Notes under the pieces: model-generated
Database searches by the model: none
What the model saw: only the letters and a program-made list of their open reading frames with translations
Told to the model about the DNA's origin: nothing
Source of the DNA: an uncultured Candidatus Actinomarina sp.
GTDB lineage: Bacteria; Actinomycetota; Acidimicrobiia; Actinomarinales; Actinomarinaceae
DNA length: 55,127 nt
Assembly (NCBI GenBank): GCA_902626065.1
Contig: CACODT010000008.1
Location: 1-55,127 of the forward strand
Reading direction: 5' to 3'
Part shown: positions 21,419 through 54,070 of the stretch, in pieces
Numbering within the stretch: position 1 is the first letter of the stretch
How the letters are laid out: each line of letters begins with the position of its first letter
Made by a program: the position numbers and the translations under genes

Positions 21419-23032
21419 ATGGATACTTACAAAGGATCAGGAGTATCTCCTGGCATTGGCCTTGGGAAATTTTACGTAATAAAAAATGATATCGATTTCT
21501 CTATTCCTAAAAAATTCAGTTTTGAGGAAAGTCAAAAAATATTGGATGAGAGGTATGAAAATTCGATCAACGGATTAAAAAATGATAATAGGGAAGATGA
21601 AGCGGAGGTTCTCAGTGCCTATCGTCTTTTGCTTAATGATCCTGAGATTACTGAAATGATCAATGACGAGCAAAATTTATCTGAAATCTACAAAGTATTT
21701 ACAGAAACATCAGATCAAATGCTTAATTTTGAGGATGAATATTTTAGGCAAAGAGCAGAAGATATAATATCTATTGGTAAAGAAATTATATTTACAATGC
21801 AGGATGTTATCTCTGATAAAAAATTAATCGAAGATGTGATCATATTTGCCGATGATTTAACTCCAAATGACACTTCATCTCTAGACCTTACAAAAGTAAA
21901 CGGTTTTGTAGTTTCTAATGCAGGTCCAACATCTCATGCTGTAATCGTTGCAAAAAATTTAGGCATTCCGTGTGTTATTAATTTCGATATATCAACAATT
22001 GATTTAAACCAAGATAAAAATGTTGTAATAGATGGGGATTCTGGGGAAATATTTATTGATCCTAATCCCGAAGTCCTAGAAAGAGTAGAGGAAGGTTTAG
22101 CAAAAACTAATAAACTTAAAGAAATATATAATCTTGAATCTATTCAAGCTCTAGATATTGATTTGAGAGCAAACATAGGAAGTAACGAAGAAATAAATGC
22201 CTTTAATGATGAACTAATAAAGTCAGTTGGGCTCTTTAGATCAGAATTTGTTTATATTGACAAGTCTTCAAAACCAAATTTAGAGGAACAAATCGAAATA
22301 AATAACAAATTAAGTAGTAAATTTTCTGAGACAATTGTTTTTAGAACGCTGGATATCGGTGGCGACAAACAGGTCCCTTATCTTAATTTGCCTAAAGAAG
22401 AAAATCCTTTTCTTGGTGTAAGGGGTATTAGATATTCTTTAATAGAAGAAAATTTATTCAGAGAGCAGATAGTTTCAATTCTTAATTCGGATTTAAATAA
22501 AAAAGTAAAAATAATGTTTCCAATGGTTTCTATTGTTGATGATTTTCTAGAAGCAAAAAAAATTGTACTTGAAGAATCAGAAAAACTGAATGTCAAAACA
22601 CCTCCCTTAGGAATAATGGTAGAAACACCATCAGTTGCGTTAAATGCAAATCAATATGTTAACCATGTTGATTTCTTCTCTATTGGAACTAATGATTTGA
22701 TTCAATATACATATGCAGCTGATCGTGGTTTAGCATCTTTAAATAAATATCAAGATCCACTCGATACTGGTGTTTTGAAATTGATACGAAACGTCATTGA
22801 AATTGGAATGGAAAATGATATTGAAGTATCGGTATGTGGCGATATGGCATCAGATAGAGATGCTTCAATAATTCTTTATCTTCTTGGTTTAAGAGTTTTC
22901 AGTATTGCACCGTCACAAGGACCAAACATAATAAAATCATTAATTCATGCCAAAGACAATCTATCAAATATAAAAATAGAGGAAATTCTTTCCTCATCAG
23001 ATTCTCAAAGTTTAAGAAAACTCATATCATAA
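21419..23032 (+). CDS. ptsI: PTS enzyme I (phosphoenolpyruvate-protein phosphotransferase)
   Basis: The 537-residue protein starts YKGSGVSPGIGLG, has the phospho-histidine site NAGPTSHAVIVAKNLGIPCV, and the C-terminal PEP-binding barrel with FRSEF, FRTLDIGGDKQVPYL, PMVSIVDDF, GIMVETPSVAL, SIGTNDLIQYTYAADR and SVCGDMASD. It takes phosphate from PEP and passes it to HPr. At 537 residues it is slightly shorter than the usual 570. The HPr gene is 6 kb downstream in the mannitol operon. ispD follows after 7 bases. Confidence 0.94.
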   Translation: MDTYKGSGVSPGIGLGKFYVIKNDIDFSIPKKFSFEESQKILDERYENSINGLKNDNREDEAEVLSAYRLLLNDPEITEMINDEQNLSEIYKVFTETSDQMLNFEDEYFRQRAEDIISIGKEIIFTMQDVISDKKLIEDVIIFADDLTPNDTSSLDLTKVNGFVVSNAGPTSHAVIVAKNLGIPCVINFDISTIDLNQDKNVVIDGDSGEIFIDPNPEVLERVEEGLAKTNKLKEIYNLESIQALDIDLRANIGSNEEINAFNDELIKSVGLFRSEFVYIDKSSKPNLEEQIEINNKLSSKFSETIVFRTLDIGGDKQVPYLNLPKEENPFLGVRGIRYSLIEENLFREQIVSILNSDLNKKVKIMFPMVSIVDDFLEAKKIVLEESEKLNVKTPPLGIMVETPSVALNANQYVNHVDFFSIGTNDLIQYTYAADRGLASLNKYQDPLDTGVLKLIRNVIEIGMENDIEVSVCGDMASDRDASIILYLLGLRVFSIAPSQGPNIIKSLIHAKDNLSNIKIEEILSSSDSQSLRKLIS

Positions 23033-23039
23033 AAATATA

Positions 23040-23717
23040 TTGAAAGTTTTTGGAATACTATTAGCTGCTGGCTTAAGTGAAAGATTTGAATCTGATAAAC
23101 TTTTCGTCACACATGAAGACAAGGAACTTATAAGATTTCCAATTGAAACATTTTTAAATAATGATGAAATTGAATCTTTGGTTGTTGTCTGCAATGAAAA
23201 TAACATTGAAAATATTAAAAATATTTTTAAATCATATGATACTCAAAAAGAAGTTGAAATTATTTATGGAGGAAAGACAAGACATGAAAGTGAAGTTTTT
23301 GGATTAAATACTTTAAAAGAAATGCATGTAGCCAATACTGACTTAGTTGCAATTCATGATTGTGCCAGATCTTTTCTTCCCGAAGAACTGTTAAAAGAAC
23401 TTATTATCGAAGCAAAAAAACATGGAACATGTTCTCCCTTTATAGAGACAAAACTTTTTGATAATTCTAAGAAGGAATTGTCACCAGATAGTTTTGTAGA
23501 GATTCAAACCCCACAGATATTCGAATATGAAGTTTTACAAAAAGCATATCTTAATGATGCAGATGAAGTAATGAACTCCCATGATACTACCCAACAAGTA
23601 TCAAAGATTTTAGGACTTAAATCAAAAGTCATTTTAGGGTCTGACCTTAATTTAAAAATCACATATAAAGAGGATTTAGAGATTTTAAAATTGAAATTAA
23701 GAAAGATTGAGAATTAA
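23040..23717 (+). CDS. ispD: 2-C-methyl-D-erythritol 4-phosphate cytidylyltransferase
   Basis: The 225-residue nucleotidyltransferase starts with TTG (MKVFGILLAAGLSERFESDK, the GxGxRxxxxxxK-type CTP loop). It has YGGKTRHESEVFGL (IspD: GGxxRxxSVxxGL), VAIHDCARSFL (VHDaARP) and VEIQTPQIFEYEVLQKAY (TPQxFxxxxLxxA). This is IspD rather than a general cytidylyltransferase. It makes CDP-methylerythritol in the MEP isoprenoid pathway. It lies 7 bases after ptsI and shares one base with the next gene (TAATG), whose product may supply its substrate. Confidence 0.85.
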   Translation: MKVFGILLAAGLSERFESDKLFVTHEDKELIRFPIETFLNNDEIESLVVVCNENNIENIKNIFKSYDTQKEVEIIYGGKTRHESEVFGLNTLKEMHVANTDLVAIHDCARSFLPEELLKELIIEAKKHGTCSPFIETKLFDNSKKELSPDSFVEIQTPQIFEYEVLQKAYLNDADEVMNSHDTTQQVSKILGLKSKVILGSDLNLKITYKEDLEILKLKLRKIEN

Positions 23718-24925
23718 TGAGTTTACTAAATAGATACACAAACTTTGTGAATGAAAGGGGTAAAAAAACTAAAGTTGCACTTGTTGGAGCAGGACAAATG
23801 GGTCAAGGGATAGTGACTCAAATAAATAAAATGCCCGATACAGATTTAGTATTAATAGTCGATAAAAATGAAGAAAAGCTTGACTCAGCAAAAAGTAAAT
23901 ATGAAAAAAATAAAGATATTTCACTTTCAACAAACCTTGATTCATTAGATGATCAAGAATTAGACATTGTTATAGAAGCTACAGGTACCCCTTCTGCAGG
24001 TGCTGAAGTTGCATTTAAAGTTTTAAATAGGAAGATAAATCTGATCCTATTAAATGTAGAAACCGAAGCAACCATTGGTCTTGCTTTGAATAATGAAGCC
24101 AAAAAAAATGATTGTATTGTAACAGTTGGGGACGGAGATGAACCAGTTGCTGCAGTAGAATTATACAATTTTGCAAAAGAAATTTCACTAGATGTAATCG
24201 CAATAGGAAAAGGTAAAAACAATCCTTTTGACGTGTTTAAGACACCAAAAGATCTTGAAAAAGAAGCAAAAGTGAAGAAAATGAATCCATATATGTTAAC
24301 AAGCTTTGTTGATGGAAGTAAAACAATGATAGAGATGGCAGCATTAGCAAATTATCTCGATTTCAATATCGATATTGACGGAATGCATGGCCCAAGTTCA
24401 ACATATGAGGAACTTAACTCTATTTTTGTACCGAAATCATCAGGGGGAATCCTTGAAAATACAAATGTTGTAGACTTTGCATTTGGAATTGCACCAGGTG
24501 TCTTTGCGATAGTATTTTCTGAAGATGATTATGTAAATTATGAAATGGAATATTTAAAAATGGGAAAAGGTCCTTTCTGGACACTTTATAGGCCCTACCA
24601 CTTAACAAGTTTAGAAATTCCAAGAACAATCATGAAGTTAATGGTTGAAAAGGAAACACAGTTAAGTGCGAAAAAATGGAATGTTGATGTAATTGCACAT
24701 TCAAAAAAAGACTTAAAGGCTGGAACAAATCTTGGCTCTATTGGTGGAGATAATATTTATGGAAAAGCCATGAAAGTTGAAAACTCCAAAAATCTTGCAC
24801 CACTCGGTATATCTGAAAATAATGTTCTTAATTCTGATGTAAAAAAAGGCGATCCTATATCTATAGACAATCTTGATATTACTGATAATCAACTTTATAA
24901 ATATTGGGTGTCACAAAATAACTGA
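23717..24925 (+). CDS. NAD(P)-dependent SAF-domain oxidoreductase, probable DXR-II (DRL)
   Basis: The 402-residue protein has a Rossmann start KVALVGAGQMGQGIVTQI (about residues 19-36), a homoserine-dehydrogenase-like domain (IVIEATGTPSAGAEVA, VGDGDEPVAAVELYNFAKE) and a C-terminal SAF-like segment (KKDLKAGTNLGSIGG to VKKGDPIS). This architecture is that of DRL/DXR-II, the second class of 1-deoxy-D-xylulose 5-phosphate reductoisomerase described from Brucella. Its coupling to ispD, the next step of the MEP pathway, supports that role. Other members of the superfamily act in sugar-acid catabolism, so the assignment depends on context. No classical dxr is seen here. Confidence 0.6.
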   Translation: MSLLNRYTNFVNERGKKTKVALVGAGQMGQGIVTQINKMPDTDLVLIVDKNEEKLDSAKSKYEKNKDISLSTNLDSLDDQELDIVIEATGTPSAGAEVAFKVLNRKINLILLNVETEATIGLALNNEAKKNDCIVTVGDGDEPVAAVELYNFAKEISLDVIAIGKGKNNPFDVFKTPKDLEKEAKVKKMNPYMLTSFVDGSKTMIEMAALANYLDFNIDIDGMHGPSSTYEELNSIFVPKSSGGILENTNVVDFAFGIAPGVFAIVFSEDDYVNYEMEYLKMGKGPFWTLYRPYHLTSLEIPRTIMKLMVEKETQLSAKKWNVDVIAHSKKDLKAGTNLGSIGGDNIYGKAMKVENSKNLAPLGISENNVLNSDVKKGDPISIDNLDITDNQLYKYWVSQNN

Positions 24926-24975: not shown

Positions 24976-25500
24976 ATGAAAAAACCTAATCAAAGAGTTG
25001 GAGCAGATGTCGTAAAGACTGATTTAGTCGAACTTCACAAGTCCTCATCTAACAAATCTGTAACATACGCTTTACATTTTGATACGCAAGAGACAAACCA
25101 ATTTTGTGACTTTACCGAAAAAATTCAAAAGTTGGTTTCAGGATCAAAGATAGCTCATGGTTCTGTAACATTATCAACTCCTCACACGACAACAGCAATA
25201 ATTATTAATGAATCAGAAACAGGTTACATAAATGACTTCAAAAGAAAGTTAGAAGACATTGTTCCATCAGATTCATATTTTGAGCATGACGATTGGGAAT
25301 TAAGAACTGAGAACATGCAAGAAGATGAAAATGTAAACGGACGATCTCATGTTAGAGGCTCAATTATTGGTTCAACATCTGTTTCATTACCTGTTGTAGA
25401 TGGAGAAATTATTCTAGGAAGGTGGCAACGTCTCTTTTTTATTGAACTTGATTGTGGACGTTCTCGAAGACTCTTTGCACAAATTCAAGATTTAGATTAG
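24976..25500 (+). CDS. YjbQ/UPF0047 family protein
   Basis: The 174-residue protein has the family signatures HGSVTLSTPHTTTAIIINE, HDDWELRTEN, NGRSHVRGSIIGSTSVSLPV, ILGRWQRLFFIELD and CGRSRR. UPF0047 proteins are small trimers reported to have weak thiamine-phosphate synthase activity; the true role is unsettled. The stop overlaps that of the convergent redoxin gene by 4 bases. Confidence 0.85.
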   Translation: MKKPNQRVGADVVKTDLVELHKSSSNKSVTYALHFDTQETNQFCDFTEKIQKLVSGSKIAHGSVTLSTPHTTTAIIINESETGYINDFKRKLEDIVPSDSYFEHDDWELRTENMQEDENVNGRSHVRGSIIGSTSVSLPVVDGEIILGRWQRLFFIELDCGRSRRLFAQIQDLD

Positions 25501-26302: not shown

Positions 26303-27370
26303 ATGAAAGAATTCATACAACGCGTTGGTGGTGCTGCGTCAGGAATGGTTATTCCTAACATTGGTGCCTTCATCGCTTGGGGATTAATCACATCCCTATA
26401 CATTGGACCTGGATGGGCACCAAATGAAGATTTGGCAAACATGGTAGGACCAATGATTGTAAACCTTCTCCCGTTATTAATCGGTTATACCGGTGGAAAA
26501 ATGATATATGGCCACAGAGGTGGAGTTATCGGTGCAGTTGTTACTATGGCAGCTGTAGTTGGTACAGACAGTCCACAATTCTTGGGTGCCATGTTAGTTG
26601 GACCCGGAGCAGCTAAAGTTCTAAAAGAACTTGATGCAAGACTCCGTGATAATGTACCGGAAGGTTTTGAGATGTTATATGACAACTTCTCATCAGGTAT
26701 TCTTGGTTGGGGACTTGCAGTATTTGTTTATTCATTTCTTGCAAACATTCTCCAAGCAGTCGCTGACGGATTAGGAAACTTTGCTGGCGGATTAGTTGAA
26801 GCTGGTTTAGTTCCTCTTGCAGATATACCAATTGAAGTTGCAAAAGTGTTGTTCCTTAACAACGCGGTGAACCATGGTGTGTTGACACCTCTTGGAGCAG
26901 CTCAAGCAGCTGAAGAAGGAAAGTCAATATATTACATGCTTGAATCAAATCCTGGACCAGGTCTAGGATTGCTTATTGCATACTACATTGCAGGAACTGG
27001 AATGTGGAAACAATCAGCACCAGGTTCAATTATCATTCACTTCTTCGGTGGAATTCACGAAATTTATTTCCCATACGTGTTAGGTCATCCAATTATGATC
27101 GTAGCAATGTGGGCAGGTGGAATTTCTGCTGATCTATGGTGGCAAGCTACAGGCGCTGGTCTTGTAGGTCCTCCATCTCCAGGTAGTATTTTTGCTTACT
27201 TAGCAATGTTGCCTAAAGATGGCCCTGCAAATGTATTGATTGGTGTAGCTATTGGAGCTGTTGCAGCTGCAGTAGTTGGAACTATCATATTGAGAGCTCG
27301 ACCAATTCAAGAAACTGACGCTGGTGTAGACGAAGCTATTGATACTTCAATTCCAGGAGTTGATGTATAA
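26303..27370 (+). CDS. mtlA: Mannitol-type PTS permease, EIIC component
   Basis: The 355-residue polytopic protein starts with the amphipathic KEFIQRVGGAASGMVIPNIGAFIAWG, as in MtlA. It has the periplasmic/loop motif LFLNNAVNHGVLTPLG and the hallmark GGIHEIYFPYVL. It transports mannitol while EIIB phosphorylates it. The EIIB and EIIA domains, often fused to MtlA, are separate genes downstream. A strong hairpin terminator lies between this gene and EIIB. Confidence 0.93.
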   Translation: MKEFIQRVGGAASGMVIPNIGAFIAWGLITSLYIGPGWAPNEDLANMVGPMIVNLLPLLIGYTGGKMIYGHRGGVIGAVVTMAAVVGTDSPQFLGAMLVGPGAAKVLKELDARLRDNVPEGFEMLYDNFSSGILGWGLAVFVYSFLANILQAVADGLGNFAGGLVEAGLVPLADIPIEVAKVLFLNNAVNHGVLTPLGAAQAAEEGKSIYYMLESNPGPGLGLLIAYYIAGTGMWKQSAPGSIIIHFFGGIHEIYFPYVLGHPIMIVAMWAGGISADLWWQATGAGLVGPPSPGSIFAYLAMLPKDGPANVLIGVAIGAVAAAVVGTIILRARPIQETDAGVDEAIDTSIPGVDV

Positions 27371-27391
27371 GAACTAACAAAAATTAGTTAT

Positions 27392-27430
27392 AATTGACTT
27401 GGGAGGAAACTCCCAAGTCAATTTTTTTTT
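27392..27430 (+). terminator. Strong intra-operon terminator after EIIC
   Basis: A perfect 14-bp stem (27392-27405 with 27410-27423) closes on a GAAA tetraloop and runs into a T-tract to 27430. It should end most transcripts after EIIC, with readthrough, or a promoter not seen by me, serving EIIB onward. The EIIB Shine-Dalgarno (GAAAGGA) follows immediately. Confidence 0.88.
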
Positions 27431-27442
27431 GAAAGGAATATT

Positions 27443-27763
27443 ATGAGCTCAATAGAAGCAGCAGATGTTAAAAAGATATGTTTAGCTTGTGAAGCTGGGG
27501 CGGGATCAAGCCTAATGGTCAAGAACAGTCTAATTAAAAAAGCAAAAAAAGCGGGTGTAGAAGTTGAAATTGTACATTCACCAGCAACGCAAATTCCGGC
27601 AGATAGTGATATTGTTGTAACTCATCAGGGACTAGCAGGTGTTGCAAAACAGTCTGCTCCAGACAATGCTGTTGTGATTCAATATATTATGTTTATGAAT
27701 GATCCATCTTTAAACAAATTAATTAAAGATTTGGCAGAAGGTAATACCATAACCTCTACATGA
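27443..27763 (+). CDS. Mannitol-type PTS EIIB component
   Basis: The 106-residue protein has the P-loop ICLACEAGAGSSLMVKNSL with the phosphorylated cysteine (family CDAGMGSSAM), then VEIVHSPATQIP and VVTHQGLAG. It relays phosphate from EIIA to the sugar bound in EIIC. It is free-standing rather than fused to EIIC and overlaps the EIIA gene by 4 bases (ATGA). Confidence 0.9.
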   Translation: MSSIEAADVKKICLACEAGAGSSLMVKNSLIKKAKKAGVEVEIVHSPATQIPADSDIVVTHQGLAGVAKQSAPDNAVVIQYIMFMNDPSLNKLIKDLAEGNTITST

Positions 27764-28200
27764 CAACTAAACCAGTCTTAATAAAAGAAGCTATATTGGT
27801 TGATCAAAATATAACTGATCTCAACCAAAGTATTGATTTAGCTGGTAAATTGTTACTTGATAATGGATATATTGATGAAGAATATATCGAATCAATGAAA
27901 GAAAAAGTATTGGAGCACCCATATACTACTTATTTACCAGGTGCTGGAGTTGCAATACCACACGGAATGTCTGATGGTTTTAAATATATTAAACACACTG
28001 GGATTAGTGTTTTACAAATTCCAAATGGCTTAAATTGGCTTGATGAAAAAGTTTACATAATAATTGCGATAGCTGCCAACAGTGATGAGCACATGAATGT
28101 TTTAGCTTCATTAAGTGACGCTCTTGAATCTGAAGAGGATGCACAAAAACTTTGGACAACAAATTCTGTAGATAAATTATTTGAAATATTAAGTAGTTAA
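27760..28200 (+). CDS. mtlF: Mannitol/fructose-type PTS EIIA component
   Basis: The 146-residue PTS EIIA type-2 protein has YTTYLPGAGVAIPHGMSDGFKYI with the phospho-histidine (IPHG, near residue 68), and ISVLQIPNGLNWLDEKVYIIIAIAANSDEHM, as in MtlF. It accepts phosphate from HPr and donates it to EIIB. It is coupled to EIIB by ATGA and is followed after one base by mtlD. Confidence 0.93.
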   Translation: MTTKPVLIKEAILVDQNITDLNQSIDLAGKLLLDNGYIDEEYIESMKEKVLEHPYTTYLPGAGVAIPHGMSDGFKYIKHTGISVLQIPNGLNWLDEKVYIIIAIAANSDEHMNVLASLSDALESEEDAQKLWTTNSVDKLFEILSS

Positions 28201-28201
28201 G

Positions 28202-29281
28202 ATGCCAAAATTTGCTTTACATTTTGGTGCTGGAAACATCGGTAGAGGCTTTATAGCTCCTGTGCTTCAAGAAAATGATTATGAAGTAATATTCGTTGAT
28301 GTAAATTCTGAACTTGTAGAAAAATTAAATAATAAAAAAAAATATAAAATAAACTTTATTGGATCCAGCAAGGAAAGTATCGAGGTTTCAAATTTCCGAG
28401 CTTTAGATCTAAACAGCTTAGATGAATTAGGTCCTTTAATATCTGAAATTGAAATCATATCAACTTCTGTCGGACCTCAGTATTTAAACAATGTTGTTGA
28501 AATAATTTCAAAAATTAATTTTGATAAAGGTATAGATTTTATTGCTTTTGAAAATAAATATAGGGCTTCAACTAATGCAAAAAATGAATCAAATATTCAG
28601 CAAGATCATATCAAATTTATAGATGTGGTCATTGATAAGATTGTTCCTTTGCAGTCCAAGAATAATTTAGATGTTTTTGTCGAGGAATACGGTTCGATTG
28701 TTTTTGATAGTAATCAGACTATTCCTCTCAAGCTCTCAAACATCATTAAGCAAGGTAATTATGATTATGAATTTAAAAAAAAGTTATGGATGTTGAATGG
28801 ACTTCACTTATGTCTTGCATACTATGGTTTATCTAAACATTTTGAATATATCCACGAATTATATGAAGATAATGAAGCAAAAGAATTTGTAGATCTTATA
28901 TCAAAAGAAATTCTAGAAAGCGTATTTTTACTTGATGGGGATGAATATAAATTGTTAGAAAAGTACAAAGACACAATAAATAATCGTTTTGCAAACAGTG
29001 AAATAGAAGATCAATTATTAAGAGTTGCAAGGAATCCAAATCTTAAATTTTCATACAGAGAGAGATTTCATGAGCCACTTGATATTTTGATTGAAAATGA
29101 TAAAAGTATAATTGGATTTAAGAAAATTTTAGATATTGTGTTTGAATTTTCTTTTTCTGAAGTAGATGGTTTCGACGACTTTAAAAATGAAGTGTTAAAC
29201 TTAGGAAGATCAAATTTATATAAAAATTTTTGGATGCAAGATAAAAAGTATAATAATTATTTAACCAAATTAGGAGATTGA
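28202..29281 (+). CDS. mtlD: Mannitol-1-phosphate 5-dehydrogenase
   Basis: The 359-residue protein has the N-terminal NAD site ALHFGAGNIGRGFIAPVL, STSVGPQYL and, near residue 200, the KKLWMLNGLHLCLAYYG region that holds the family's catalytic Lys/Asn/His positions. It oxidises mannitol 1-phosphate to fructose 6-phosphate. It sits between EIIA and HPr in the operon, which settles the substrate of the PTS as mannitol or a close hexitol. Confidence 0.94.
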   Translation: MPKFALHFGAGNIGRGFIAPVLQENDYEVIFVDVNSELVEKLNNKKKYKINFIGSSKESIEVSNFRALDLNSLDELGPLISEIEIISTSVGPQYLNNVVEIISKINFDKGIDFIAFENKYRASTNAKNESNIQQDHIKFIDVVIDKIVPLQSKNNLDVFVEEYGSIVFDSNQTIPLKLSNIIKQGNYDYEFKKKLWMLNGLHLCLAYYGLSKHFEYIHELYEDNEAKEFVDLISKEILESVFLLDGDEYKLLEKYKDTINNRFANSEIEDQLLRVARNPNLKFSYRERFHEPLDILIENDKSIIGFKKILDIVFEFSFSEVDGFDDFKNEVLNLGRSNLYKNFWMQDKKYNNYLTKLGD

Positions 29282-33013: not shown

Positions 33014-33268
33014 ATGTTAGAAATAAAAATTTCAACCTGGCAATACAATGCTCTCTGTCGACAACATAGTACTAATCTTTTCTTCCCTCCCGCAACATTT
33101 GAAAAAAAAGAAGAAAGAGAAAAAAGAGAAGCAAAAGCCAAAGCAGTTTGTAATGGATGTCCGGTTAAAGTTAACTGTTTGGAAGAAGCCGAAGAAATTG
33201 AAGAACCATTTGGAATATGGGGAGGACTTAACGAAGTTGAGAGAAAAAGAAATTTAGTTTTTTCCTAA
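33014..33268 (+). CDS. WhiB-family iron-sulfur transcription regulator
   Basis: The 84-residue protein has the four cluster-binding cysteines of WhiB proteins: Cys15 (ALCRQ), then VCNGCPVKVNC (CxxCx5C), and the turn FGIWGGL followed by the basic NEVERKRN stretch. FFPP after the first Cys is also typical. The family is essentially restricted to Actinobacteria and their phages, so it is the best lineage marker here. It binds a [4Fe-4S] cluster and works with the primary sigma factor. The stop overlaps the selB stop by 4 bases. Confidence 0.92.
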   Translation: MLEIKISTWQYNALCRQHSTNLFFPPATFEKKEEREKREAKAKAVCNGCPVKVNCLEEAEEIEEPFGIWGGLNEVERKRNLVFS

Positions 33269-34944
33269 ATTTTTTTTCTAGTTCCAGATTTATCAATCTT
33301 TGTAGTAACACCTAGTTTGTCTAATAACTCAAGATAAGGGACTGTATATTTTCTAGAGAGTTTTGATACTTCTTTAAAATCTTTAATTTTAAATTCACTT
33401 GGCAAACTTTCGATGAGTTTGATTAGTTTATTCAAGTGTTTGTCTGAAATAATTATTTTAGAATTAACTCTGTAAATACTTTTAATTAAGAAAAGCTCTT
33501 TCAAGTCATCTCTATTGAAATCTTTTGTATCAATGATATTGACTTCGAGTGTATGTCCAAGAAGTTCACATATCTTTTTATATTGAGAATTTAAATTTTC
33601 ATGGCTATCCATTTTTTTTAATAATTGATTATTTGAGACAGACAAATTTTCAATTTTATTAATAATTTCTTTGATTACTTCAATAGTTACTTGATATTTG
33701 CTTCTGAAGTATTCTTCAACACCTAATTTATTAATTAAATCAATATCTCCATTTAAACTGGTGTTGATTTCTTCAAAAATGTTTTCATTTATATAACAAC
33801 CTTTAATTTTTCTAAAATTTTGGCCCGCATCGATAAATTTTTCATCAACAATATTAAAAATATCAAGAAGAGAAAAAACTCTATCTAAGTTTTTTAATTT
33901 TTTGTTTAATTCTTTAATTTGATTTTTTGCGAGAAAAAATAAAAATACACCACCCTTAAAAATATTTTTATCAACGTTTTGGATAAGTAAATTTTCAAAA
34001 TCTGGGATTGGGACAACTTTAGAAATATTTAAATATGCATAAATGTTGTTTTCTGAATAAATAATTTTAATTTTTTTAATATGTGCATTATCTGTTCCAA
34101 AAAAAATTCTTAAAGTTCCTTTTAAAAAAGATTCCTTTATATCAATGTCATTTAATTCAATGAATAAATCTTCTGAAAAAGAAATTGGTTTATTGGTAAG
34201 TAGATCGCCCCTTCTTGGAAATAATTTGTTTGTTTTCTTTAGAGATAATGCGATTCTTTTTTGTGTAATCTCATCATTATTTTTTTTATGCTTACTCTGA
34301 ACCTCCTTAATTTGAAGTTTTTCGTTGTGTAAATTGTAGATTACATTTTCATAATCAAAACCTTTATTCGCTGTACCAGTGATTACTTTCCCAGTACCGT
34401 CAATTGTAAAACTACGATCAACCCACAATGAAGGTATTTTCTTAGGAAAAGTACAAGATTGAATAAATTCATGAATTTGTTTACGCATCTTTTCTCTGTC
34501 TGAGGTTTTTTTGTTGAACTTTAAAATCATGTAGTTCATATTTTTATAATTTTCGATTTTATGTTGTAAAATTTCTTGGTTCACTTCAGTTTCTAAAAGA
34601 TCAATTTTTGTGAATACAAAAATAAAATTCGATTTATTTAAAGATATAAGGGATTGAAAGTGTTGTTCTGATTGTTCTGACCAGTTCTGCACTGAATCAA
34701 TGATAAATAGAACAACATCTACATTGGAAAATCCAGATATAGTATTTTTAAAAAAATCTTTATGTCCTGGTACATCGATAATTGAGTATGTATTTTTTTC
34801 GTAAGAAAAATGTGTGTATCCTAAATTAATTGTAAGGCCACGTTTTTTTTCTTCAGGAAGCCTGTCCGTTTGCTGTTCAGTTAAGAAATTAACAAACGTA
34901 GATTTCCCATGGTCGACATGTCCAGCAGTGGCAATTACCGTCAT
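33265..34944 (-). CDS. selB: Selenocysteine-specific elongation factor SelB
   Basis: The 559-residue protein starts with G1 ATAGHVDHGKSTFV and has RGLTINLGYTHF (G2 area), DVPGHKDFFKNTI (G3) and TKIDLLE (G4), matching SelB rather than EF-Tu. Beta domains follow, and the C-terminal half has winged-helix repeats that bind the SECIS hairpin. It delivers Sec-tRNA to in-frame UGA codons. It overlaps selA by 4 bases (ATGA), forming one transcript. Confidence 0.93.
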   Translation of the reverse strand: MTVIATAGHVDHGKSTFVNFLTEQQTDRLPEEKKRGLTINLGYTHFSYEKNTYSIIDVPGHKDFFKNTISGFSNVDVVLFIIDSVQNWSEQSEQHFQSLISLNKSNFIFVFTKIDLLETEVNQEILQHKIENYKNMNYMILKFNKKTSDREKMRKQIHEFIQSCTFPKKIPSLWVDRSFTIDGTGKVITGTANKGFDYENVIYNLHNEKLQIKEVQSKHKKNNDEITQKRIALSLKKTNKLFPRRGDLLTNKPISFSEDLFIELNDIDIKESFLKGTLRIFFGTDNAHIKKIKIIYSENNIYAYLNISKVVPIPDFENLLIQNVDKNIFKGGVFLFFLAKNQIKELNKKLKNLDRVFSLLDIFNIVDEKFIDAGQNFRKIKGCYINENIFEEINTSLNGDIDLINKLGVEEYFRSKYQVTIEVIKEIINKIENLSVSNNQLLKKMDSHENLNSQYKKICELLGHTLEVNIIDTKDFNRDDLKELFLIKSIYRVNSKIIISDKHLNKLIKLIESLPSEFKIKDFKEVSKLSRKYTVPYLELLDKLGVTTKIDKSGTRKKI

Positions 34945-36236
34945 ACTGATTCAAAAAATTCCAAAAGTACATTATCATTTTTTTCACTTGTACTTCTCAG
35001 ATCAATAATTATATTATCTTTATTGATTCTCGGTATTATTGGAATTGAATTTTCAAGAAACTTATTCATTAGATTTTCATTTTCTAATCTGTTGATTTTT
35101 AACACCGGAGATGATATCGATTTGTCTGGTAATGTTCCACCACCCATTAAAGAATAATCATTTTCTATAGTGTGTTTTAATTTAATTTTGTCTGATAAAT
35201 TCTCAAGCCTCTTTTCAAGTTGCTCATAACTCATAGAGATCATTTCCCATAAAGGAATCTCTTTTTCATTTTTTGATATATATTTTTTAACGGTTTCTTG
35301 AAGTTCAAAAAGTGTTAGTGGTGAACAGCGATAAGTTCTAAATAAAGGTGCATTTTTAATGGAATTAACCAGAGTATTATTTCCGGCGATTATCCCGGAT
35401 TGAACGGATCCAAATAATTTATCTCCGGAAAACATAACCAAGTCGGCACCAGACTCTAAAGATTCTTGAACAGTTGGTTCATTATCAAGAATCTCAATAT
35501 TTTCTTTTTTTAAAAATTTTCTACTTGCGACTAAACCGCTTCCAAGATCATGTATCAAAATACTATTCTTTTCATCTGAAAGAATTTTTAAATCTTTTAA
35601 ATCTACTTCTTCCACGAAACCATTAATGGAAAAGTTTGAACGATGAACTTTTAATATTAAACTTTTCTTATTTTGGTTAAGGGCTTTTCTATAATCGTTC
35701 AATCTTGTTTTATTTGTTGTCCCAACCTCAATCATTTTTAGGCCAGTCTCCTGTATAATTTCCGGAAGCCTATAAGAACCTCCAATTTCAATTATTTCTC
35801 CTCTTGAAATTATTACTGAATCTACCTCGAATTCATCTTTGAGCGTTTTAAGTGTAATAAATAGTGAGGATGCATTATTGTTGACAAAACATACATTTTC
35901 CGAACCTAAAAGTAAATTCATTGATTCTTTTAAAAAAAGATTTCTTTCCCCTCTTTTGTTTTTTAATATGTCATATTCAATATTCGTACTTTCACCACTG
36001 AAACCTATATCGACTTGAGCTCTACCTAGGTTTGTATGAAGTAAAGTCCCCGTACAATTTATTACTTTTTTTTGAACTTTTAATGAAAATTCGTATGTTT
36101 CTCTCTTAAAATTTTCAATTGCCTCATTCTTATTACTATTATCTTCAAGAATATTTTGAGCTAAGAAGATCAAAAATTCTCTTGGTAGATCCGAATTTAC
36201 AGTATCTATAAGGTTATTTACTGATATATTTTCCAT
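34941..36236 (-). CDS. selA: L-seryl-tRNA(Sec) selenium transferase SelA
   Basis: The PLP enzyme of 431 residues has INCTGTLLHTNLGRAQ, ENVCFVNNNASSLFITL, SRGEIIEIGGSYRLPEI, EVGTTNKTRLNDY, and the PLP-lysine motif MFSGDKLFGSVQSGII. It converts Ser-tRNA(Sec) to Sec-tRNA(Sec) with selenophosphate. A TTG at 36239 would add one residue; the ATG at 36236 is preferred. selB follows by overlap. tRNA-Sec and selD are not in this window. Confidence 0.93.
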   Translation of the reverse strand: MENISVNNLIDTVNSDLPREFLIFLAQNILEDNSNKNEAIENFKRETYEFSLKVQKKVINCTGTLLHTNLGRAQVDIGFSGESTNIEYDILKNKRGERNLFLKESMNLLLGSENVCFVNNNASSLFITLKTLKDEFEVDSVIISRGEIIEIGGSYRLPEIIQETGLKMIEVGTTNKTRLNDYRKALNQNKKSLILKVHRSNFSINGFVEEVDLKDLKILSDEKNSILIHDLGSGLVASRKFLKKENIEILDNEPTVQESLESGADLVMFSGDKLFGSVQSGIIAGNNTLVNSIKNAPLFRTYRCSPLTLFELQETVKKYISKNEKEIPLWEMISMSYEQLEKRLENLSDKIKLKHTIENDYSLMGGGTLPDKSISSPVLKINRLENENLMNKFLENSIPIIPRINKDNIIIDLRSTSEKNDNVLLEFFESV

Positions 36237-36331
36237 CAATTTCTGCTTTTTTTGATTTAAAACTCATGTATACATCTTAAAGAAAAATGATTTGATGTAA
36301 TAATAAATTTTTTGAATAATTTAATATGCGA

Positions 36332-49513: not shown

Positions 49514-49834
49514 TTGTCAAATGGCTTAAAAACAATTTGTTTTGATATAGATGGAACAATTTGTTCCATAAATTTAGATGATTACTCAAATGCACAACCT
49601 TTTGAGGAAACTATAAAAAAAATTAACATGTTATATGATTTAGGACACAAGATAATTTTTAATACTGCACGTGGATTTTTAAGCGGAAAAGACTGGGAAA
49701 AAACTACAAAAGATCAATTGAAAATATGGGGAGTAAAATATCATGAATTATATTTTAATAAACCCGCAGCTGATTATTACATTGACGACAAAGCCTTAGA
49801 ACTTAAAAATTGGGAAGATATACTAATAAAATGA
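49514..49834 (+). CDS. Small HAD-family phosphatase of the glycan cluster
   Basis: The 106-residue protein has the HAD motif I DIDGTICS near residue 12, motif II IIFNTARG, a lysine in FNKPAADYYIDD and the late acidic motif YIDDKALE. It resembles the short capsule-biosynthesis phosphatases (EcbF/BcbF-like). It starts with TTG and overlaps the NeuB-type gene (ATGA), which suggests it dephosphorylates a substrate or product of that enzyme. Confidence 0.82.
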   Translation: MSNGLKTICFDIDGTICSINLDDYSNAQPFEETIKKINMLYDLGHKIIFNTARGFLSGKDWEKTTKDQLKIWGVKYHELYFNKPAADYYIDDKALELKNWEDILIK

Positions 49835-52294: not shown

Positions 52295-54070
52295 TTAAGA
52301 ATTTTTAATTGCCAAGATATTTTTCATTTCTTCATCATCAATGTATGGATGCATGTCATATAAATTTGAACTTACAATGTTTCCCTTAGAATCTGTCCTA
52401 GATTTAACCCTTGGTTGAAAATTAATATTATTATCAATTTTAAGTTCTACAACTAATGGTAATTTAATTTTGTTAAAATCATGTAGAAACTTTTTATAGT
52501 TGTAATTATCAACTTTTAAATAGTCCAATTTATGTGCTTGAGAAATTGATTTTAAATCTGGAAATGATAGTCCTGTTGTGGAGTCAATGCCTATTAAATT
52601 GTCTGAAAAATAATTGTTTTGAGTTTGTCTTATTGAATGGTAACCATTGTTTGAGATAACAAATAACAAAATATTTAGATCATATTCGGCAATTGTTGCA
52701 AGTTCTTGAATATTCATTTGAAGGCTTCCGTCACCTTCAAAACATATGATTCGTTTATTTTTACTCGATATTGCAGAACCAATTGCTGCAGGAAGGCCAT
52801 ATCCCATCGACCCGGAGGTTGAGTTAGTAAAAAAACGTTGATTTTTTTTTAAAAGTAATGCCTGATTTGGCACTATTGCTGCAGTAGCATTAGCAGTTAC
52901 AAAAATATCATTCTCTTTAGTATGCTCGGATAACTCTAAACAAAAGATATAAGGATTTAATTCCTTTGTATCGATATAGCCTTCATTTTTTATTGAGTAT
53001 TCGGTTTTAATTGTTTTTGCCCACTCTTTAAACTCTTTGTGATTTTCTTTATTTACCAGTTCACAATTAAATTCATTAAAAAATTTATTGAGATCAGTGT
53101 TAATGGATAGATCAACATTATTAGCTATAGTTTTTTTTACTAATTCTGATTTATCGATATCAACATAGCAAAAAAATTTATCTTTTCCAAAATTATCAAA
53201 ATTATAACCTATTTGCCTAATGTTTAGACTTGAACCAAGAACAAGAATTAAATCAGAACATTCAAGTATTAAGTTACCGCTTCTATCTCCTAAAGTTCCT
53301 GCTCTACCGTAAAAATTTTCATGGTTTTCCCACATTAAATCATGACCATTAAATGCAGTTAATACAGGAAGATCTGTTTTCTTAATAAATTTTCTAAAAT
53401 TTTCTACAGAATTAGAAGACCACACACCTCCACCAGCTAATACAACTGGTCTTTTTGATTCATTTATCTTTTTTGAAAGTGTAATTAATTTTGAATTTAT
53501 ATTTTTATTGTTTTCATTAAGAATGAAATTATTAGATTTATTTTTTTCAATGTATTCATCTCCTTGAACATCAATTGGTATATCTATCCATACAGGCCCT
53601 TTTCTTCCACTATTCATTATTTTTAATGCTTTGTTGAGTTCAAAACTAATATCATCTTTTTTAGTAATAGTTTTAGAATATTTAGTTATTTTTTTAACCA
53701 TATCTACTATTGGTGCTTCCTGATCTCCAAGTTGTCTAAGATTACTATCAAAATTGAGGGTTTCAGTCCTAACCTGTCCTGATAAAATTAACATTGGAAT
53801 CGAGTCTCCATACGCACCAAAAACACCGTTTAGGGTATTAATTCCACCAGGACCTGCAGTAACACAAATTACACTTACCTTACCACTTGCTTTCGAGTAA
53901 CCATCTGCAGCCATAGCACATGACTGTTCATGATGAAAAAATGTTGCATTTAAGTTTGTGTTTCTTGAAAGAGAATCATTTAGATGCATTGCAGCTCCGC
54001 CTGTAACCATAAAAATGTCTTTAATATTATTTTCGACAAGAATTTGAGCAACTTTATCAGAATTTTTCAT
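52295..54070 (-). CDS. Thiamine-diphosphate-dependent enzyme, acetolactate-synthase-like
   Basis: The 591-residue protein has the full POX/ALS fold. The N-terminal Pyr domain has GGAAMHLND and the activating Glu in FFHHEQSCAMAADGYSKAS; a central domain has VVLAGGGVWSS; the PP domain has the TPP loop FEGDGSLQMNIQELATI and SNNGY. It lies in a glycan cluster rather than with ilvC/ilvN, so a role in building a branched sugar (compare YerE) or another glycan precursor is more likely than valine synthesis. That role is inference. Confidence 0.85.
   Translation of the reverse strand: MKNSDKVAQILVENNIKDIFMVTGGAAMHLNDSLSRNTNLNATFFHHEQSCAMAADGYSKASGKVSVICVTAGPGGINTLNGVFGAYGDSIPMLILSGQVRTETLNFDSNLRQLGDQEAPIVDMVKKITKYSKTITKKDDISFELNKALKIMNSGRKGPVWIDIPIDVQGDEYIEKNKSNNFILNENNKNINSKLITLSKKINESKRPVVLAGGGVWSSNSVENFRKFIKKTDLPVLTAFNGHDLMWENHENFYGRAGTLGDRSGNLILECSDLILVLGSSLNIRQIGYNFDNFGKDKFFCYVDIDKSELVKKTIANNVDLSINTDLNKFFNEFNCELVNKENHKEFKEWAKTIKTEYSIKNEGYIDTKELNPYIFCLELSEHTKENDIFVTANATAAIVPNQALLLKKNQRFFTNSTSGSMGYGLPAAIGSAISSKNKRIICFEGDGSLQMNIQELATIAEYDLNILLFVISNNGYHSIRQTQNNYFSDNLIGIDSTTGLSFPDLKSISQAHKLDYLKVDNYNYKKFLHDFNKIKLPLVVELKIDNNINFQPRVKSRTDSKGNIVSSNLYDMHPYIDDEEMKNILAIKNS

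Follow-up and report, generated by a model that had tools for sequence, protein, structure and literature searches.

The window, a 55,127-nucleotide stretch of DNA from an uncultured Candidatus Actinomarina sp. (contig CACODT010000008.1), carries on its forward strand a gene cluster built around a 402-amino acid open reading frame at 23717..24925, which begins with ATG and exists as the original prediction described it. The frame encodes a putative DXR-II, or DRL, the reductoisomerase that forms MEP. Upstream lie ptsI (21419..23032; PTS enzyme I; TIGR01417, 397 bits), the first gene of the probable transcript, and ispD (23040..23717; PF01128, 104 bits), which encodes the next pathway step. The nearest solved structures of the ispD product are the IspD structures 1vpa and 5ddt, and an order-wide search identifies the gene as the only full-length ispD of its genome. 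Against TIGR00453 the product scores 133, below the cut-off of 181, and the DRL-linked IspD proteins of other actinobacteria also stay below it (156). Seven bases separate ptsI from ispD, and the TAA of ispD overlaps the ATG of the DRL gene by one base (TAATG). A gene for a YjbQ/UPF0047 protein (24976..25500; PF01894, 98 bits) follows after 50 bases, and mannitol-type PTS genes (IIC, IIB and IIA) with an mtlD-like dehydrogenase gene, assigned by PF02378 for IIC and by synteny, occupy 26303..29281 on the same strand. Because of the TAATG overlap and the short distance from ptsI to ispD, co-transcription of ptsI, ispD and the DRL gene is very likely.

Promoter and terminator signals near the operon are uninformative and show no excess: the 27 promoter-like sites compare with 28.8 in shuffled sequences, and the forward strand has no terminator there. 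A foreign base composition of the DRL gene was also ruled out, since its GC3 of 20.6% falls inside the 18-25% range of its neighbors. Elsewhere in the window, on the reverse strand, adjoining SelB-like (559 amino acids) and SelA-like (432 amino acids) frames at 33265-36239, judged by eye, probably represent the selenocysteine machinery of a streamlined genome. Also judged by eye, an acetolactate-synthase-like thiamine diphosphate enzyme is encoded at 52295-54070 (reverse strand) within an apparent surface-polysaccharide island that includes a NeuB-like frame at 49810.

The predicted protein combines an NAD(P)-binding Rossmann domain of the homoserine dehydrogenase-like type (residues 24-136, 23786..24124; PF03447 NAD_binding_3, 35.9 bits) with a more C-terminal DRL catalytic domain (residues 140-301, 24134..24619). 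The latter matches positions 1-164 of the 164-position Pfam profile PF21135 DRL_cat at 201 bits (1.4e-59; cut-off 27), and Pfam gives no match to PF02670, the DXR-I (IspC) family, in the protein. In a phmmer search of the PDB, the best solved relative is Brucella DRL (3upl/3upy), which aligns with residues 13-385 at about 1e-73. An AlphaFold2 model, made from an alignment of 24 window and locus sequences and reaching a pLDDT of 94.9, superposes on 3upl over the whole length with a TM score of 0.95 and an rmsd of 1.9; the next fold family reaches about 0.46 or less. The homoserine dehydrogenase-like half of the layout originally predicted is thus confirmed together with DRL_cat. Its SAF half was not detected by Pfam in the C-terminal third (E ≤ 0.001), yet the model follows Brucella DRL throughout. 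Membership of the predicted full-length protein in the DXR-II/DRL family is firm.

The active-site motifs of the window protein, GKGKNN (K165 and K167), DGSKTM (T203), GMHGP (H224) and RPYHL (R292 and Y294), correspond to K191, K193, T229, H250, R320 and Y322 of the Brucella enzyme. In the published analysis of the family, K191, K193, T229, R320, Y322, E174 and F178 are substrate, fosmidomycin or dimer residues, and G121 and H250 are clade markers (PMC3847144). All of these residues are kept, and the sole change among the Brucella-mapped positions examined is V351 to N. Position 229 is T in DXR-II and hydrophobic or P, S or A in the DXR-II-like groups DLO1 and DLO2 (PMC3847144); the window protein has T and therefore lacks the DLO pattern. 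In the six DLO-type plasmid proteins, position 229 is S, P or I, position 320 is K or T, and the lysine pair contains R or L; the window protein has none of these substitutions. In a quick maximum-likelihood tree of 99 rows, whose one anchor known from experiment is Brucella, the window protein groups with Brucella DRL and other DXR-II-like proteins, and four DLO-type proteins fall outside with a support of 100. Two DLO-like rows (L157 and L160) are placed within the DXR-II part of this tree on very long branches, which we treat as a long-branch artefact. Clustering with the sugar-acid SAF oxidoreductases, named in the original prediction as an outcome that would speak against it, was thus not observed in residues or tree. 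The stem of the clade that contains the window protein (type B, below) is long, with 1.68 changes per site.

Cells cannot do without isoprenoid synthesis, and the MEP pathway is considered to be entered and controlled at DXS. Family searches for the pathway genes covered 42 genomes of the order, which in the collection used is a single genus (Ca. Actinomarina) of 42 species; the genome of the window is 1.02 Mb in size and 89% complete. DRL occurs in 33 of the 42 genomes, including all eight that are at least 90% complete, a frequency that fits a universal gene at the typical completeness of about 80%. Classical DXR (DXR-I, PF02670) was found in none of the 42, the window's own genome included, and the same search finds it above the cut-off in 10 of 14 control genomes; a normal dxr elsewhere was the other outcome named as speaking against the original prediction. 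Together with the DXR-II residues and fold, these counts support in silico the central claim of the original prediction, that DRL may replace DXR. What that prediction overlooked is that DXS, too, is missing order-wide. No genome of the 42 has a match over the TIGR00204 cut-off (best match, 74 bits versus 466), the same search finds DXS over the cut-off in 10 control genomes, and incompleteness at the typical level cannot produce such a result. A divergent DXS in the window's genome was considered and rejected, as its two DXS-like matches are a transketolase and a 668-amino acid fused E1 alpha-beta protein beside E2. The later pathway steps are represented by full-length IspD in 32, IspF in 40 and IspH in 30 of the 42 genomes, and by IspG in the window's own genome, the one genome searched for it. 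The 2020 description of the order lists PTSs for sorbitol and for mannitol and is silent on how isoprenoid precursors are made (PMC7771536).

DRL lies in one of two cassettes at a single chromosomal site, which were typed from the gene neighborhoods in all but a few genomes and from the DRL sequence in the remainder. Type B, found in 18 genomes including that of the window, has the order (ptsI)-ispD-DRL-yjbQ, and type A, found in 14 genomes, has the order ptsI-ispD-GutM-glucitol IIC-IIBC-IIA-DRL-E1alpha-E1beta-free lipoyl domain. All 14 type-A genomes, and no others among the 42, have the glucitol IIC family, yjbQ follows DRL in type B only and is absent beside it in type A, and neither a Gut PTS nor a split E1 pair was found in the window's own genome or in any of the 18 type-B genomes. 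Mannitol-type PTS and mtlD-like genes form the right-hand flank of the site in both types. In two genomes (G035 and G010), ptsI and the mannitol genes are missing at the locus and ispD-DRL-yjbQ is kept; this loss separates type-B DRL from sugar import and argues for a biosynthetic role here. The two cassettes can be inspected at loci L045-L064 and L181-L192, and in type A a free-standing lipoyl domain of 90 amino acids, not accompanied by the other parts of an E2, comes right after E1beta (L047:12242-12514).

The cassettes do not share the history of the genomes that carry them. The ptsI, ispD and DRL trees each separate type A cleanly from type B, but the tree of the neighboring gene dnaB requires three A/B changes and rejects a single type-B clade (p-AU 2.7e-7), and the fused-E1 tree interleaves the two types in agreement with dnaB. 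This pattern reflects either the exchange of cassettes among species or the parallel loss of old paralogues. Genome G029 (L181, which is G029:C2, and L034) combines type-B-like core genes with a DRL identical to the one in G007; its DRL contig is most likely contamination, and we do not treat this genome as an exception.

Outside the order, the family is common: a scan of GTDB genomes confirmed at least 563 DRL relatives, which contradicts the statement that DRL is rare. The best 80 of these at least 563 relatives were taken for locus reading and plasmid records were added; the 86 DRL-family loci outside Actinomarina include six DLO-type plasmid loci and a few short ones. Glucitol-PTS genes lie within about 11 kb of DRL in 50 of the 86 loci, E1alpha and E1beta lie near DRL in 50, both sets are found in 42, E1-E1-E2 in 45 and IspD in 29. 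Most of these distant loci, which span several phyla, thus look catabolic, a feature that the original prediction also overlooked. One Lentibacillus locus has regulator-GutM-IIC-IIBC-IIA-DRL-E1a-E1b-E2-E3 in one row, Sinorhizobium and Rhizobium plasmids have DRL-E1a-E1b-E2-E3 adjoining a sugar ABC transporter, in Nitratireductor GutM and glucitol IIC lie close to DRL-E1a-E1b-E2, and Ligilactobacillus has DRL with a glucitol PTS, fructose-6-phosphate aldolase and transketolase. Actinomarina type A groups with Nitriliruptoraceae in both the E1beta and the DRL tree, as expected of a module inherited as a unit. PTS-type DRL coexists with DXS and DXR-I in six genomes (Nocardia, Salinibacterium, Cryobacterium, Ktedonosporobacter, Aquiluna and Planococcus). 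Seven genomes, several of them with DRL beside ispD and without PTS, have DXS and lack DXR-I, and three actinobacterial MAGs with PTS-DRL and IspD have neither, although incompleteness may account for this. Given the catabolic-looking loci and the presence of DXS and DXR-I in several such genomes, membership in the DRL family alone is no proof of an isoprenoid role. Published DXR-II activities include those of Finegoldia, in which both isoprenoid pathways are missing, and of Chloroflexus, a mevalonate user (PMC3847144).

Several other genes recur near DRL. A small protein of about 105 amino acids that carries two CxxC pairs and matches no Pfam family is found beside DRL or IspD in actinobacteria and Bacilli (L079:13304-13615, L109:11968-12303, L129:11293-11661, L133:2535-2873 and others). 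In freshwater actinobacterial MAGs, a second, weakly IspD-like protein adjoins the DRL-linked IspD (reverse strand; L109:12291-12941, with 48 bits and beside CarD, L095:10959-11747 and L147:11971-12594). In Tissierellia and Clostridium (L104, L134, L137 and L142), DRL is located beside an HI0933-like flavoprotein with no PTS, and three of the four loci have lipoate-protein ligase, which gives the family a different setting there.

We propose that the window gene probably encodes a genuine DXR-II enzyme that substitutes for DXR-I in Ca. Actinomarina and feeds the coupled IspD, a proposal drawn from residues, predicted fold and gene context. DRL would interconvert DXP and MEP with NADPH, and MEP would pass to the translationally coupled IspD and then to IspF, IspG and IspH. 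We infer from these data the production of MEP by the enzyme in vivo, the direction of its reaction and the supply of its substrate. With DXS missing, DXP has to come from another enzyme, or a precursor has to be imported, as DRL cannot run forward without DXP. The first candidate for a DXS substitute would be a pyruvate dehydrogenase-type E1 that carboligates pyruvate and glyceraldehyde 3-phosphate: E. coli aceE mutants rescue the loss of dxs, and the paper that shows this also cites pyruvate and acetoin dehydrogenases as forming 1-deoxyketoses (PMC3424233). The type-B genome of the window may use such a non-DXS source of DXP, with its fused E1 as the first candidate, or a scavenged precursor. 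A biosynthetic type-B DRL that feeds IspD is the simplest reading, and the type-B cassette, which either lost the PTS and E1 or never had them, keeps only the isoprenoid-facing ispD-DRL-yjbQ. For type-A relatives, the preferred reading, too, has the PTS probably importing 2-C-methylerythritol as MEP and DRL running from MEP to DXP, by the route set out next.

The strongest alternative, though less likely than not to be right, is that the DRL of Actinomarina is catabolic, as in most of its relatives. Glucitol-type PTSs phosphorylate alditols, MEP is a methyl-branched alditol phosphate, and E1 enzymes of the pyruvate dehydrogenase/acetoin type act on methyl-ketone acyloins. Chained with DXR-II chemistry, these activities give a route from methylerythritol through MEP and DXP to acetyl-CoA and GAP, which we infer from gene content and chemistry. 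In type A, the glucitol-type PTS would probably import 2-C-methylerythritol and phosphorylate it to MEP, DRL would oxidise MEP to DXP, cleavage of DXP by E1 and the lipoyl proteins, or by E1-E2-E3 elsewhere, would yield acetyl-CoA and GAP, and IspD would tap MEP for isoprenoids; with MEP siphoned off the imported pool, DXS could be lost. The 14 type-A cassettes, the PTS and E1 genes at the outside loci, the complete E1-E2-E3 sets beside DRL in Lentibacillus and the rhizobial plasmids, the six genomes that also carry DXS and DXR-I, and the activity reported from Finegoldia and Chloroflexus, which do not use the MEP pathway, all favor this alternative. However, it fits type B poorly, where the Gut PTS and the split E1 pair are absent and two genomes lack ptsI at the locus, and 2-C-methylerythritol as the substrate is derived only from enzyme chemistry, with no report found in literature searches. 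Searches for a methylerythritol catabolic operon likewise gave nothing relevant. More broadly, we tentatively suggest, as a model that could well prove wrong, that DXR-II chiefly serves as the core of a widespread but undescribed catabolism of 2-C-methylerythritol, a module that became wired to IspD in Actinomarina. Isoprenoids would then be made without DXS, from imported methylerythritol in type A and from non-DXS DXP or a scavenged precursor in type B.

A drift of the window protein to another substrate, with loss of its function as a DXP reductoisomerase, is unlikely. The long type-B stem makes a shifted substrate possible, and the V351 to N change and the lack of a recognised DXP source in the genome point the same way, but the substrate-, fosmidomycin- and dimer-site residues examined are all kept, the gene overlaps the only full-length ispD, and type-B genomes have retained IspD, IspF and IspH without another DXR. 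Very improbable, too, is a sugar-acid SAF oxidoreductase of the DLO kind, which would resemble DXR-II but lack DXR activity: the Rossmann and DRL_cat architecture is common to both and DLO-type proteins come up in the same search, but the plasmid DLO-type proteins differ at key positions where the window protein does not, and four DLO-type proteins lie outside the DXR-II clade. The effect on the fosmidomycin response expected in the original prediction needs a correction: resistance does not follow from the use of DRL, because fosmidomycin binds and inhibits this enzyme as well (PMC3847144, PMC3424233).

Of greater interest than DRL itself are the lack of DXS throughout the order and the module that joins PTS, DRL and E1. 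An order of abundant surface-ocean bacteria that has IspD, IspF, IspG and IspH and lacks DXS and DXR-I would either possess a new enzyme that forms DXP or depend on a precursor from outside. A PTS-DRL-E1-E2-E3 operon would also explain the published puzzle of DXR-II in bacteria without the MEP pathway or alongside an intact DXR-I.

Among known systems, the standard MEP pathway shares IspD, IspF and IspH with the order, and IspG with the window's own genome, and differs in DXS (0/42). DXR-I (IspC) would catalyze the same expected reaction, DXP to MEP with NADPH, but belongs to another sequence family (0/42). DLO1 and DLO2, which are non-functional as DXR (Carretero-Paulet 2013), have family ancestry and domain layout in common with the window protein and differ from it in diagnostic residues and tree position. 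The DXR-II of Brucella abortus (3upl, 3upy) resembles it in sequence (35% identity), three-part fold, active-site residues and the replacement of a missing DXR-I. Unlike Actinomarina, where DXS is absent order-wide, Brucella is described with all other MEP enzymes; the window gene is further set apart by its translational coupling to ispD and by a C-terminal part with no Pfam SAF match. The literature searched describes no pathway of PTS-DRL-E1 composition. Acetoin/pyruvate dehydrogenase and glucitol PTS (gut/srl) operons supply the component families found beside DRL in type A and in most distant loci, but there the two are joined around DRL in one operon.
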